Source: Candidatus Poribacteria bacterium (GTDB lineage Bacteria > Poribacteria > WGA-4E > WGA-3G). Taken from it: 9,598 nt of DNA. The stretch spans positions 1 to 9,598 of the forward strand of contig JAPPMR010000664.1 of NCBI GenBank assembly GCA_028818995.1, written 5' to 3'. Shown here piece after piece: positions 1,977-7,822 of the stretch; the first letter of the stretch is position 1; every line of letters starts with the position of its first letter. The notes under the pieces are model-generated. The model was given only the letters and a program-made list of their open reading frames with translations. It was not told the DNA's origin and made no database searches. The position numbers were made by a program, and so were the translations under genes.

Positions 1977-4559
1977 TTAGCCATCCTGCTCTGAAATTTG
2001 GGGAACAGTTTTCAATGCGTTATCAAGATCCTCTCTGAACTGATTTTCATGGGTCTTATTATAGAATGAAGGTACGCCGATGATACGATATTTGCTATTT
2101 TCTGTCAGGACTTTACTTTGGTATTCTGTGCAGATTTCTTGTAGAAATTCCTCTTTCCATCGGTCACCGTCAGCAATATGTTCCCCTTTAGGTTCAATGA
2201 AAAGTTGGTAGGACAGCGCGTTCCCATTTTTCTCGCGTAAGAATAGCACAAAATCGGGTTGAAATCCTTGTCCATCAGAGAAGTTATAGAGTGAGAAATG
2301 TCCCTCGTTGCGAAGCAAATAAATGATCTCGTAGTCTTTTTCTGTATCCTTAATCCATCTGTCTAACAATCGCACAAATGCCCTTTCTGCGCTCGTGCCG
2401 TAGAGGGTGTCAAAAGCAAACCAGTCTTTAACCGAGACAAAATGCGTGAACTGCGGGTCCTCCTTAGACTTTAGGGTATCGGGGCTAAATTCCAAACGTT
2501 TGTCTGTAAAAATAGCGTGGACGAATTCTTCATAAAACTGTGTTGTGCCTTCGTATTCAGTAATCTGTTCGCGGATATCGGATTCAATTTGACCTAACAA
2601 ACCACAACATGCAGCCAGTTTTTCGGAGCGATTGATTCCTAACCCGTTGATGTTTCCTTGAAGGTTGATTGTCAGTCCTCTAAGATAGTCTTCAGAGGTG
2701 ATAAATTCGCGTATGGATGTCAACTGCGGGAAATACCTGCTGATTGATGCAAACGTAAAAAACGGATTGCGTGCAATCGCTGCTTTAACAATATTCATCT
2801 CAATATCCTTCACGGGTAAATCCTCAGAATTTTCATCGGAAACAATCGTTATATTTTGATTCTTGAGTGCTGTAATTGTGCCTCCCTGCCCAGTAGCAAT
2901 CTGATGCGGATAGTCTTTCTTCTTAACGCCTAAATCTTCAAAAGATTGAATGTGACTATAGTTTTTCTTAACTCGCTTGTTCAGCCAAACAACACCTTTT
3001 TTGTAAAAGTCGGTTTCTTTGAATTTGTTTTTTAGTTTGATTTCTCGTGACTCACGTTCTTTGATGTCCATCATCCCCTTATCAATCAATGCTGAACGGA
3101 TTTCGGAGATGTAACGAGGATTGTGCATGCTGTGATAATGAAGTTCCTCTAACACGCGTAGGTCATGATCAGGGTTTTCATCAAACTTGCGGCGGAACCG
3201 GTCAGGGTAGTCTGGTAGGACGAAATGAAAATAACGTGCGCCGCGCCCGATAAGTTGTGCTTCGGAGGTTGTCGTTTTCCCTGAGTCTCGGGTCTCGTAA
3301 CAGCGAACGATGTCAAATAGATTCAGCACATCCCACCCTTCATTGAGTTGTTGCACAGCAAAAATAGCACGGATCCGATTACCTTTATCTTCAAGTGTAT
3401 TGATCAATATTTGGTAATTTTTTCTCTCTTCTTCACTGTTAACTGTGAGGCAGTGGTCCTCGCGAAATTCGGATTTCAGTTGTTGTGTCAACAATTCCGC
3501 GCTTGTGTTATCTTCATCGAAAAAACGAAACGCTCGTTGAACAGCTGGCACTTTTGATACTCGACGAATACTGTTAATCTGATTTGCAGTCAATTCATCA
3601 ATTAGTGTGCGAAAGTTTTCCCTATTTTCTTTTGATCGCGGAATTGATTTTTCCTTAAACAAGATAACAGGTTTATCAAGTGGAATCTTATATTTCACAG
3701 CGACCTTCTGCTTGTAATAACTGAGAATGAGTGCTTGCAGCATGCGCGTCTGCGTGTTCATATCAAAGTACACAAGATCTATCTCTTTAGAGAATTTATC
3801 TCTACGGAAATCTATTAGATCATATCGGTTGATAACTTTATTCCGATACTTCTCTACCATCGCAGCCGTTTCGTAATCGTGTGTAGCAGTGAATTCCAAA
3901 AGTAGGTTAGCTTCATTTGACTTAAAGATACGTTCCACCGTATTTTCCCAACTTTCAAAAAGTTCTTGCTGAGTTTTTGTTTTGGTATTCATGTGGTGTG
4001 CTTCATCTGCCAACAGCACAATTTCCTGCTCAGCGAAATTTTCATAAGTTAAGGCATTCTCCTTTTCTGTTGTCATATCAATGCGCAACTGCTGAATCGT
4101 TGTGAAACAGATATTGATGTCGTTTTCGTTGACTCCGTCAAAGTTGTTTACTTCTGTCACCGCGACCTTTTTCCCATCAATATAGATATTTTCGTTGAAA
4201 AGATATTTTGTGGCGCGTGGGTTGAGGAAATTGTCTCTTGTTTTTTCAATGATATTGGTGGAGTTAACGAAAAAGAGGAAATTGTGGTAACCTTGCTCAT
4301 AGAGGTATAGAATCAAACCTGCCATGATAAGTGTTTTACCGCTACCGGTTGCCATATTGAATAAGAGATGTAATGGATTTTCCTTGCCGGGAAAAGTGCC
4401 ATTGTGACAGTGAATGAACCTTGCAAATGCTTCTTTCTGATAATCGCGAAGTTCATAAGCAGGATTTAGGTTTTGTGTAATGCTATCGGGAATTTCTTTG
4501 TTTAGAAGTCCCAAGTTAGATGCTGCGTCAAGTTGTTGATAAAGGAATTGTTCAGGCAT
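1977..4559 (-). CDS. res: Type III restriction enzyme, Res subunit (SF2 helicase + nuclease)
   Basis: An 860-aa protein with the full layout of a type III Res subunit. The N-terminal SF2 helicase shows Walker A ATGSGKT (70-76), DEAH (185-188), TAT as motif III (224-226), NEGWD (406-410) in the motif V region and QLIGRGAR as motif VI (435-442). Near the C-terminus is a PD-(D/E)XK nuclease core: PDF at 768-770, then EPK at 789-791 (D769, E789, K791). Known family role: with Mod it forms a complex that hydrolyses ATP and cleaves DNA with unmodified head-to-head sites. No catalytic residue I looked for is missing, so it appears functional. The ATG is fixed by a perfect AGGAGG 5 nt before it. It is the last gene of the operon, 11 bp after the stop of the 425-aa gene. 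The next gene downstream has its own candidate promoter. Confidence 0.95.
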   Translation of the reverse strand: MPEQFLYQQLDAASNLGLLNKEIPDSITQNLNPAYELRDYQKEAFARFIHCHNGTFPGKENPLHLLFNMATGSGKTLIMAGLILYLYEQGYHNFLFFVNSTNIIEKTRDNFLNPRATKYLFNENIYIDGKKVAVTEVNNFDGVNENDINICFTTIQQLRIDMTTEKENALTYENFAEQEIVLLADEAHHMNTKTKTQQELFESWENTVERIFKSNEANLLLEFTATHDYETAAMVEKYRNKVINRYDLIDFRRDKFSKEIDLVYFDMNTQTRMLQALILSYYKQKVAVKYKIPLDKPVILFKEKSIPRSKENRENFRTLIDELTANQINSIRRVSKVPAVQRAFRFFDEDNTSAELLTQQLKSEFREDHCLTVNSEEERKNYQILINTLEDKGNRIRAIFAVQQLNEGWDVLNLFDIVRCYETRDSGKTTTSEAQLIGRGARYFHFVLPDYPDRFRRKFDENPDHDLRVLEELHYHSMHNPRYISEIRSALIDKGMMDIKERESREIKLKNKFKETDFYKKGVVWLNKRVKKNYSHIQSFEDLGVKKKDYPHQIATGQGGTITALKNQNITIVSDENSEDLPVKDIEMNIVKAAIARNPFFTFASISRYFPQLTSIREFITSEDYLRGLTINLQGNINGLGINRSEKLAACCGLLGQIESDIREQITEYEGTTQFYEEFVHAIFTDKRLEFSPDTLKSKEDPQFTHFVSVKDWFAFDTLYGTSAERAFVRLLDRWIKDTEKDYEIIYLLRNEGHFSLYNFSDGQGFQPDFVLFLREKNGNALSYQLFIEPKGEHIADGDRWKEEFLQEICTEYQSKVLTENSKYRIIGVPSFYNKTHENQFREDLDNALKTVPQISEQDG

Positions 4560-4570: not shown

Positions 4571-5848
4571 TTATAGAACATTTGATTCAACATTTTCTTC
4601 CCCACTAACATCAGGATCTGCATCTTCTATTTCTGATTTATTCTTTTGGTTTTCGTTAGGTGGTGTAGAGAGATAAAAGTAAATCTGATCGAGTGTTAAG
4701 AGTGCTTGTAATGCTCTTTCTGGTTTATAATCTTCTCCTAAAGCAACACCATGAAGGGCAGAATGTCGTGATAAATCAACTTCTCCGGTTGTGGGGTCAA
4801 ACTCTTTGAAAATACTCTCCGTGAGATAATTTAAAAAATACTGAGGTAAAAGTAACGATTGGTCGTCCTCAGTTTTACGCTCACCAACTTCTATAAGTCG
4901 ATCAATAAGTTTCTGTATGTTACGTGTCCTCTCTCCGCTATCCTGATAATATAAGGAACGCATAATCCCTTCAATTTCTGAATAGAGAGTCTTTATGCAA
5001 TTTATGTAGTCGCTTTTGGTACTTCCAAGAAAAGCATCGATGCCAGCTTGTATTAGTTCCTGCTTTTCCAGGAAAATAGGATTTTCCCACCACTTGTCAG
5101 TTATTTTTTGTAAGCGTATTTCATTGAAATTTTCAAGAAGCAATTTTACCTTATTATCGTAAGTGAACTTTTCATTTTGATAAGTTTCAAATAGGGTCTT
5201 ATACTCGTTCCCCAAGATTTCTACAAAAGGAAACCATCCGTCTGCCACCATTTTTTCAAAAATAGGTTCTGATTCCAGGCTGTGATAGACATATTGAAAT
5301 GTTAAATATCTGTAGAGTTGCCCTAATTGAGTTTGCATTCGGACGAGATTAGGCACCTCAAGTTCTTCCTCTTTAAATTCTAATGAACCAACCTCCGTTT
5401 CAACTAATGTAGGATTACGCACGAAGTTAAAATAGAGTCCGAATTTCCAACCTACTTTAAGGCAACAAATAACCTTGTCAGACTCTTGTATGTCCACGCC
5501 CGGAAACCTTAATTCGATAATATCTGCAATATCATTATATGAGATCAACTCATTTTCTTTTAATGCCCGCTTGGATCGACATTTTATTTCAATCGGAAAA
5601 TCATTGACGTAAATATCGGCACTTAAGTTCTGATGTATGAGTATCAGAAAACTGCATATTGAATTAACACCTGTTTTGTGGTACGTAGCATACAAATAAG
5701 TTTTCGATATTTCCTCAATGTATTTGTAAAATATTGCATCATCGGAAGTTAGACGAGATGAATTCAATACCCAACCATAGTGATCCTTAGGTACATTGCA
5801 TACTGCAAAACCAGTGATATCCGAAACTTTCTCTAAATGAAATCGCAT
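4571..5848 (-). CDS. Unrecognised 425-aa protein embedded in the type III R-M operon; possible nuclease-like N-terminus and HEPN-like C-terminus
   Basis: I do not recognise this as a named family. It lies between mod (54 bp gap) and res (11 bp gap) on the same strand, so it is very probably part of the R-M operon. Seen directly: ADIYVNDFPIEIKCRS (77-92) has the D-x8-E-x-K spacing (D78, E87, K89) and hydrophobic pattern of a PD-(D/E)XK nuclease core. Residues 285-400 look all-helical and contain RHSALHG (361-367), an R-x4-H pattern (R361, H366) as in HEPN domains, preceded by a helix containing EIEGIMRSLY (291-300). The acidic tail SEIEDADPDVSGEEN (405-419) resembles the Mod tail. No signal peptide or clear membrane segment is seen. 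The ATG follows an in-frame stop with no alternative start between; AGGAG lies 14 nt upstream, a long spacing, so initiation may be weak. The gene looks visibly more AT-rich than uvrA. An accessory effector or regulator of restriction is inference only. Confidence 0.85.
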   Translation of the reverse strand: MRFHLEKVSDITGFAVCNVPKDHYGWVLNSSRLTSDDAIFYKYIEEISKTYLYATYHKTGVNSICSFLILIHQNLSADIYVNDFPIEIKCRSKRALKENELISYNDIADIIELRFPGVDIQESDKVICCLKVGWKFGLYFNFVRNPTLVETEVGSLEFKEEELEVPNLVRMQTQLGQLYRYLTFQYVYHSLESEPIFEKMVADGWFPFVEILGNEYKTLFETYQNEKFTYDNKVKLLLENFNEIRLQKITDKWWENPIFLEKQELIQAGIDAFLGSTKSDYINCIKTLYSEIEGIMRSLYYQDSGERTRNIQKLIDRLIEVGERKTEDDQSLLLPQYFLNYLTESIFKEFDPTTGEVDLSRHSALHGVALGEDYKPERALQALLTLDQIYFYLSTPPNENQKNKSEIEDADPDVSGEENVESNVL

Positions 5849-5902: not shown

Positions 5903-7822
5903 TTATGTGTAAAATTTCCGATTAAGTCCTTTATCTCCCTCACTGATCTCAAAATCCGCATCCTCTATTTCAGAGAGGTTGACGTAGAGTTGGTTTTTAT
6001 CAAGCAGTTCAGCGAGTAAGTGTTTCTGTTTCTCCACGTCGTCAATGGCGATGAAATCGTCTACTGCGTCTTGTGGCATTTCTGCGTTGACATACCAGTT
6101 CAGGAACGAGTTCTCGGCGATGTCTTGCCAGAGTGCGACAAGTTCTTTGGAGGATTGCGCGGCTTGGATTTTGTCCATATATGCCTGGTTGTATTGCATC
6201 GGTTCGCAATAGATGAAATCGCCGCCTTGCTTTCCTATAACTTTTTCCACGCGCGGCACGGTAACATTTTCAACATAGTCCATCTGTTCTACCAAAATAA
6301 ATTTCCGATTTCCATTATCTTGCGTGTTCGATTCTAAGACAGCATGCGCGGTTGTTCCACTTCCTGCAAAAAAATCCAATATTATGTCGTCATTACCAGT
6401 CATGATTTTCAAAGTATCTAGCACCGCATACAGCGACTTCGGATAACTAAATAAATTTTTACCCAATAAATTTTTTAGGAGATTAGTGCCTTGAAATTCA
6501 GGAAAATATTTCTTATCTGTCCACAAATTTTTAATCACTTGTTGCTCACGGTATTTGTGCAAGATTGTTATCTGCCCGTGCTGCTCCACCGCTACAAAGT
6601 AGTCACCGACATTTCGTTTTTCAAATGTCTCTGGCTTGGTTTTCCATGTAAATTCACGACCATTATTAATGGGTAAAACTTCATGATAATCATCCTTTTT
6701 TGTCAGTGTAATGTCTTTCAAATCTTTACTGACGTAAATAGGATACCAAAATTTAGGTTTATTGGTTCGTGAAGTATTTGATCTTACCCTGATAAATTGT
6801 TCTAAACGATAATTTCCTTCCTCGTCGCGTTTGTCAAAACTTTCGATCTTATCTTTGTCTAAGGCTACCTTGTTAAACTTAGCTTTAGATATGTCCTTCG
6901 CATATACCAACATGTGTTCGGTTGCAGCAGAAAAAAATCTCTCGTGTTGCCTACCTTTCGGGTTGATGTAGATCGTCACTATTCCTATACGGTTTTCCCG
7001 CCCAAATATCTCATCAAGCAATACCCCAAGATAAAATAGTTCTACATGATCAATCGTGACCGCCATAAAGCCATCATTCTTCAATAATTCCTTTCCAATT
7101 TCTATTCTATTCCTGATAAAAGTTAGCCATGTGGAGTGTTTAAATTCATTGTTATAGGAAAAAGAGTCTGTGCTTCCTCCCGTATTATACGGCGGGTCAA
7201 TGTAAATGAGTTTGACCTGTCCTCGAAATTGCTGTTTGAGAGTGTGGAGGGCGATGAGGTTATTGCCTTTGATGATAAGGTTTTCGCGTATTGTGTCGTT
7301 GTCGTCGCGCTTGATCTCGGTTACGTCTTGTGCACCTGCGGCGGTATAGCGTTTCCAACTGGTAAGCACTTTCGGATCGAACATCTGATTAATTTCGTCT
7401 TGGGCAAGGATTTCGTTGAAGAAGATCTCTTTGCGCTTTTCCTCATCCGTTGTTTGTCCGCCTTCAAGGATACAATCTTTGTAGGGCCAGACGAGTGAGA
7501 CTTCGCCGCGTTCGCGGAAGAATTTTCCGTCAATGTTCAATCCAATTTTGTTGCGGAACTGGGTGTAGGAATTGGCAAGGAAGTTCTTTTCGTTGATGTA
7601 GTCAATAAAGGTATTGTGGTTGAAAACCCAATGTCCGTCAATTTCGTCAAAGAAGGTTGATTTTATCTCTGGATCGGAAAGCAGTAATCTGATTAGGGTG
7701 TGGTCAAGTTGCCAAGCGTGATCTTTGACTGCAGCGGGAAGGAGTTCGTCTGATTCGTCAAGGAAGTCGGGATTGGTTTTGAGAAGGGCAATAAGTTTTT
7801 CGTTGAAGTTTTGTTTTGGCAT
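5903..7822 (-). CDS. mod: Type III DNA-methyltransferase, Mod subunit
   Basis: A 639-aa site-specific adenine-N6 DNA methyltransferase of the beta class, the modification and recognition subunit of type III systems. Motif order defines the class: catalytic DPPY first (209-212, followed by NTGGSTDSFSYNNEF as in type III Mods), then the AdoMet-binding DFFAGSGT (483-490). The segment between, roughly 280-460, should carry the target recognition domain and is the part expected to vary. The N-terminus (1-150) is the usual Mod helical region, and the C-terminus ends in NLSEIEDADFEIS...NRKFYT (615-639). The length is normal for the family. It methylates the recognition site in trans to Res and also guides Res to DNA. 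The start has AGGA about 10 nt upstream, and a 19-codon ORF ends 1 nt before it. There are no frameshifts or phase-variable simple repeats. Confidence 0.96.
   Translation of the reverse strand: MPKQNFNEKLIALLKTNPDFLDESDELLPAAVKDHAWQLDHTLIRLLLSDPEIKSTFFDEIDGHWVFNHNTFIDYINEKNFLANSYTQFRNKIGLNIDGKFFRERGEVSLVWPYKDCILEGGQTTDEEKRKEIFFNEILAQDEINQMFDPKVLTSWKRYTAAGAQDVTEIKRDDNDTIRENLIIKGNNLIALHTLKQQFRGQVKLIYIDPPYNTGGSTDSFSYNNEFKHSTWLTFIRNRIEIGKELLKNDGFMAVTIDHVELFYLGVLLDEIFGRENRIGIVTIYINPKGRQHERFFSAATEHMLVYAKDISKAKFNKVALDKDKIESFDKRDEEGNYRLEQFIRVRSNTSRTNKPKFWYPIYVSKDLKDITLTKKDDYHEVLPINNGREFTWKTKPETFEKRNVGDYFVAVEQHGQITILHKYREQQVIKNLWTDKKYFPEFQGTNLLKNLLGKNLFSYPKSLYAVLDTLKIMTGNDDIILDFFAGSGTTAHAVLESNTQDNGNRKFILVEQMDYVENVTVPRVEKVIGKQGGDFIYCEPMQYNQAYMDKIQAAQSSKELVALWQDIAENSFLNWYVNAEMPQDAVDDFIAIDDVEKQKHLLAELLDKNQLYVNLSEIEDADFEISEGDKGLNRKFYT

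Follow-up and report, generated by a model that had tools for sequence, protein, structure and literature searches.

A probable HEPN-type protein from the gene that separates mod and res in a type III restriction-modification operon of Candidatus Poribacteria

HEPN proteins form a superfamily for which a 2013 survey gives two signatures, R-x4-6-H and E-x3-[KR] (PMC3710099), and the same survey links restriction-modification (R-M) systems to at least 16 HEPN clades (PMC3710099). A review describes PrrC as a guardian of R-M whose accessory gene is carried within a type IC locus (PMC12707154). ApeA is listed among the HEPN systems (PMC10952713), and RosmerTA has been reported as a toxin-antitoxin system that acts against phage (PMC10440598). 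Here, we analyze a 9,598-nucleotide stretch of DNA from Candidatus Poribacteria (the window; contig JAPPMR010000664.1), in which a gene for a 425-amino-acid protein, called the middle gene below, lies between the Mod and Res genes of a type III R-M operon.

Like PrrC, which accompanies the type IC system EcoPrrI (PMC3710099), the middle protein is a predicted HEPN protein of the ribonuclease (RNase) type encoded within an R-M operon. PrrC differs in its N-terminal ABC NTPase and its type I locus, whereas the window protein has a beta-rich N-terminus and a type III locus, and no NTPase is matched by it in Pfam at E up to 1. With ApeA (PF18862 and PF18739) it shares the layout in which a HEPN domain makes up the C-terminal part and another domain precedes it, but no profile match joins ApeA to the middle-gene family: ApeA_NTD1 and HEPN_Apea are absent from the Pfam matches of the window protein (E up to 1) and from the 25 of 31 families shown for an alignment of diverse homologs (A2, below), with an hhalign E of 0.43 over 21 columns. 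RosmerTA enters the comparison through an RmrA-matching HTH-ImmA protein, which in close relatives is found in this slot between Mod and Res, although RosmerTA is a two-gene toxin-antitoxin cargo, unlike the middle protein. The HEPN clades that the 2013 survey links to R-M have this linkage in common with the window protein; in its main text both uses of "type III" refer to CRISPR-Cas, and its additional files might list the middle-gene family (PMC3710099). No description of a HEPN protein between mod and res of a type III R-M system was found among the titles and abstract openings listed by searches of an open-licence library. The linkage of HEPN proteins to R-M is already known, while the middle-gene family, the slot that it occupies and a mod-derived tail on the gene appear to be new.

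That the middle protein is of the HEPN type is supported by two conserved signatures, by its two best structural matches and by the source name of one homolog. We consider it probable that it is a defence protein of toxin-like character with two domains, a HEPN RNase and, at the N-terminus, a domain resembling a sensor, and that the operon captured it as a second-line or back-up effector. This reading builds on conservation, on the position in the operon, on the variability of the slot and on a repeat of the mod end, together with a HEPN-like helical domain predicted by modelling. The operon lies on the minus strand in the order Mod, middle gene, Res:

5903..7822, minus strand: Mod, type III methyltransferase subunit, 639 amino acids (PF01555 and PF12564; PADLOC MTase_III, 3.6e-143)
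4571..5848, minus strand: middle gene, 425-amino-acid HEPN-type protein (intact open reading frame with an ATG start; conservation, model and structural comparison)
1977..4559, minus strand: Res, type III restriction subunit, 860 amino acids (PF04851; PADLOC REase_III, 4e-133)

An initial annotation, made from the sequence, had called this the middle gene of a type III R-M operon, and so it is: the reading frame is intact, and Mod and Res genes of type III stand together on its flanks by both Pfam and PADLOC. Spacing is tight, with 54 bp from mod to the middle gene and 11 bp from there to res. For the middle protein nothing rises above the cut-off in Pfam, and PADLOC and NCBIfam give no match.

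A protein search with the middle protein returned 730 homologs at E up to 0.001. No Pfam domains are recorded on the 120 homologs listed. A second search, with a distant member from Prolixibacter (L012) as the query, gave 103 matches. One homolog (P0147) bears the source name "Apea-like HEPN domain-contai...". Conservation was read from two alignments, A1 with 52 near family members and A2 with 67 diverse homologs, hand-picked and not including the member at locus L011. The domains and motifs of the middle protein are as follows:

4658..5086, minus strand: C-terminal helical HEPN-like domain, residues 255-397 (VIA-align ranges of 254-397 for the HEPN matches)
4751..4768, minus strand: R361-x4-H366, HEPN catalytic-type motif (64 and 65 of the 67 rows of A2)
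4958..4972, minus strand: E293-x3-R297, second HEPN signature (64 and 63 of the 67 rows of A2)
5354..5848, minus strand: beta-rich domain at the N-terminus, residues 1-165 (mean predicted local distance difference test 82 in a model of residues 1-205)

R361 and H366 are jointly present in 64 rows of A2 and rank among its most conserved polar positions; next to them, H362 is kept in 61 rows and G367 in 66. In eight rows one HEPN residue is missing. The conservation of this motif, on which the earlier HEPN call had been made to depend, is thus beyond chance. The signature E-x3-[KR], typical but not universal for HEPN, is likewise found in the window protein and in A2. A histidine directly after R361 had been raised as a reservation, which we drop, because the survey gives that residue as "mostly N, D or H" (PMC3710099) and His is no objection to HEPN. 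Two family members, at L013 (1724-2956) and L011 (1065-2603), lack both R361 and H366, and these two proteins are possibly non-catalytic.

In the predicted model, residues 257-393 are mostly helical, which agrees with the all-helical C-terminal region first described, except that R361 and H366 themselves sit in a poorly modelled loop separating helices 335-346 and 376-393. The two best structural matches of the C-terminal region are HEPN domains; a third HEPN match, Csm6, ties with unrelated helical proteins.

The initial annotation had tentatively paired this HEPN-like domain with a PD-(D/E)XK nuclease core built on D78, E87 and K89, and these residues, like R361 and H366, are all at the positions it gave. 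Residues 38-92 run helix-strand-strand-strand with D78, E87 and K89 on strands, and the modelled strands 77-81 and 87-92 in which they lie bear out the strand-turn-strand pattern noticed earlier. A helix and three strands of the alpha-beta-beta-beta-alpha-beta core are present; after the third strand (87-92), however, neither model shows a helix of at least four residues ahead of the following strand (107-114). Nor are the proposed active-site residues conserved above chance, D78 being found in 26, E87 in 12 and K89 in 14 of the 67 rows of A2, with the complete triad in five; in A1 D78 is nearly invariant, unlike E87 and K89. No PD-(D/E)XK entry appears among the 50 rows listed of 996 chains aligned to the N-terminal model, an absence that is no proof. 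On the triad, the missing helix and the lack of a listed structural match the PD-(D/E)XK core is not supported, so that of the proposed pairing the HEPN half has support and the nuclease half has none; a PD-(D/E)XK nuclease fused to a HEPN-like domain is now very improbable, the poor conservation of the triad having largely refuted it.

The middle gene ends in a stretch that resembles the end of mod, the two copies forming a direct repeat:

4571..4636, minus strand: C-terminal tail, residues 405-425 plus stop, like the mod 3' end (DNA alignment; none of 200 first-order shuffles as high)
5911..5974, minus strand: second copy of the direct repeat, at the mod 3' end (DNA alignment with the middle-gene 3' end)

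When the final 66 bases of the middle gene are compared with 474 stretches across the locus, the mod 3' end is the best match apart from the gene's own end, and at the protein level only 2 of 2,000 shuffles score as high for the tail against the Mod end. The repeat is clearer at L001, a related locus with the same gene order (52 of 64 positions identical; none of 200 shuffles as high). Tail and Res junction of the window and of L001 are collinear with the mod-res junction of three operons with an empty slot, L080, L088 and L095 (none of 500 shuffles each), only the tail part of this alignment being informative because homology of the Res part is expected. In a survey of tails, the end could be placed in 172 of the 237 family sequences given; a tail of at least 15 residues is carried by 39 of these, and 30 of the 39 score at least 30 against the Mod C-terminal consensus (shuffled tails, 1.2%), which are not 30 independent events because the tails are related by descent. 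A Mod-like tail ends none of the 12 loci L004-L015. Among the 27 operons tested for the DNA repeat, it is clear in the window, L001 and L069 (where it lies between two cargo genes), borderline in L002, whose tail scores only 23 against the Mod C-terminus, and not seen in L003 (163 of 200 shuffles as high) or in the other 22. The simplest reading of these sequences would be an insertion at the mod 3' end that duplicated that end, followed by decay.

The gap between Mod and Res was surveyed through 40 further Res neighbourhoods, fetched from 68 Res rows; 45 sequences were examined including the window, and 34 operons with both Mod and Res, the window included, make up the census. The gap is occupied in 27 of them and empty in seven, where the Mod and Res reading frames overlap by 10-127 bases or, in L071, are 297 bases apart. 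Labels for the 27 occupied slots are F2 (10), F1 (6), the middle-gene family (4), a pair of HTH-ImmA/IrrE and DUF4411 proteins (3) and others (4), and a few operons carry more than one kind of cargo. Pfam matches above the cut-off were obtained for 7 of 20 slot proteins (Peptidase_M78 with HTH, DUF4411, Transposase_31, DUF3800, RRXRR, Uma2 and PIN), and a Y1_Tnp match fell below its cut-off. PADLOC, run on 10 slot proteins, identified the HTH-ImmA protein, tested in L055, as RmrA (3.9e-17) and the Uma2 protein as PDC-S03 (1.7e-9); two matches were weak, and six proteins, F1 and F2 included, had none. On the 34-row Res tree the six labels need 14 changes (minimum 5; shuffled mean 21.0; none of 200 shuffles as low), a pattern in which cargo changes and yet is passed on, in part, together with Res. 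The window Res belongs to a group of eight with full support, and four different slot contents occur within it. The slot between Mod and Res takes different accessory genes in related bacteria, and some of these are defence-like.

The main cargo families can be described further. F2 (352-525 amino acids; L054, L058, L067, L069 and L081-L086) has R-x4-H-x-G near its C-terminus, with R and H invariant in eight aligned rows (A4), and the 352-amino-acid F2 frame of L081 stops before the motif; judged by motif only, F2 looks HEPN-like. F1 (951-1215 amino acids; L002:9219-12845 and relatives) has no clear domain and is present in L063 as two frames of 445 and 468 amino acids; its L002 member has a weak pP_pnuc_1 match just under the cut-off (E 1.9e-5). 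HTH-ImmA/IrrE and DUF4411 proteins lie in the Mod-Res gap of L054, L055, L057 and L059.

Beyond this slot, 15 loci in named genomes were read, and in three of them (L001-L003) the gene stands between Mod and Res. Among named relatives, the closest belong to Candidatus Poribacteria. Both L001 and L003 show the gene order of the window, Res is followed there by a DnaJ gene, and the Res proteins share 83 and 84% identity with the window Res. In the Atribacterial type III operon at L010, the relative comes after a Mod fragment and a ResIII protein and directly before an ApeA gene (L010:4373-5736). At the remaining 11 of the 15 loci, BLAST found no Mod or Res in flanks of 265 to 8,021 bases, a limited test because BLAST with the window Res also missed the Res of L010. 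Eighteen neighbour genes from the loci without R-M, compared with Pfam, included no R-M gene and were mostly housekeeping or metabolic. In the phylum of L001, the middle-gene family is found in 5 of 84 genomes (E up to 1e-10) and a window-like Res in 47 (E up to 1e-50); three of the five are L001-L003, and around the remaining two BLAST detected neither Mod nor Res within the 13 kb read. Several Res rows of these genomes contain one in-frame stop inside the matched stretch, which may be decay or an edge of the match. Distant relatives lie on eight plasmid records, of which three were read with their surroundings. On an Agrobacterium plasmid (L097:7923-10272) the relative directly precedes a HEPN gene of the Swt1 family, and genes with HEPN/Toprim and Shedu domains lie no more than 8 kb away; in the Bradyrhizobium and Rubrobacter plasmid stretches no gene carries a defence annotation. 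All three plasmid relatives keep R-x4-H, and the Rubrobacter relative alone keeps E-x3-R in addition. No relatives were found in viral contigs and phage records. The family is probably mobile: for many members the surroundings read contain no R-M genes, and one member is part of a cluster of defence genes.

In the mechanism that we favour, a mobile family member would have inserted at the mod 3' end of a compact Mod-Res operon in Poribacteria. The C-terminal HEPN domain (about residues 255-397), with its R361-x4-H366 and E293-x3-R297 sites intact, would be the RNase, and the beta-rich N-terminal domain (about 1-165) would keep it inactive and sense a signal of infection. Should phage DNA escape, or should the restriction enzyme be inhibited, the cutting of host or phage RNA would then provide a second line of defence. 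We infer RNase activity, sensing and a trigger, as well as any physical coupling of the protein with Mod or with Res; the back-up role, already suggested in the initial annotation, is plausible from the gene's context. An ability to work without R-M is favoured, because family members occur with no R-M nearby.

The same evidence bears on other readings. The protein could instead be a PrrC-like guardian of R-M, its HEPN RNase restrained by Mod or Res, perhaps through the mod-derived tail, and released by anti-restriction proteins. PrrC in its type I operon is a precedent (PMC3710099, PMC12707154), and the tight spacing, the excess of Mod-like tails over shuffled ones and the lack of such tails at L004-L015, loci at which the gene lies outside a Mod-Res gap, all fit; however, insertion itself accounts for the tail, the tails share descent, L002 scores low and L003 has the Mod-gene-Res order with no significant repeat, gene neighbours are known for only a minority of the tailed proteins, and relatives also occur with no R-M nearby. 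We regard this as rather unlikely, though worth serious consideration. That the gene is a passenger of a mobile-gene hotspot, functionally unlinked to restriction, is suggested by the Transposase_31, RRXRR and sub-threshold Y1_Tnp matches among slot proteins and by frequent changes of cargo on the Res tree; but the slot also holds an RmrA-like toxin-antitoxin pair and a PIN domain, and cargo clusters on the tree more than shuffled labels do, which makes this reading unlikely.

A wider proposal, that defence effectors are exchanged through the gap between Mod and Res in type III systems of Poribacteria, that insertion at the mod 3' end leaves a mod tail on the cargo, and that the tail of the HEPN family now serves as a docking peptide tying the RNase to the restriction complex, as a type III counterpart of PrrC that arose by capturing part of Mod, seems to us quite unlikely when taken as a whole. 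A non-catalytic HEPN protein, binding RNA or regulating Res, is improbable: HEPN domains lacking the motif are thought to bind RNA without catalysis (PMC3710099), and L011 and L013 are such members, yet both motif residues are kept in the window protein and in nearly all rows of A2.

The favoured reading, a captured HEPN RNase, would set beside PrrC a counterpart from type III systems, in a HEPN-type family that, with its many homologs, has no entry in Pfam, NCBIfam or PADLOC. The apparent insertion scar suggests a route by which such operons acquire genes, and close relatives of one Res gene that carry different Mod-Res cargo, or none, constitute a natural experiment.

Further observations concern the N-terminal domain, in which D109 and D124 are nearly invariant (66 and 64 of the 67 rows of A2). 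A Phytohabitans protein (L015:7983-9182) shares this domain (residues 7-170 only) and has a different, TOPRIM-like C-terminus; because it is found once with another C-terminus, the domain may be a reusable sensor. An uncharacterised siphovirus protein of 136 amino acids, A0A8S5NQ38, resembles the model of residues 1-205 (Foldseek E 1.3e-4, with a poor root-mean-square deviation), and from this model comparison a phage protein of its kind is conceivable as a phage-side trigger or decoy.
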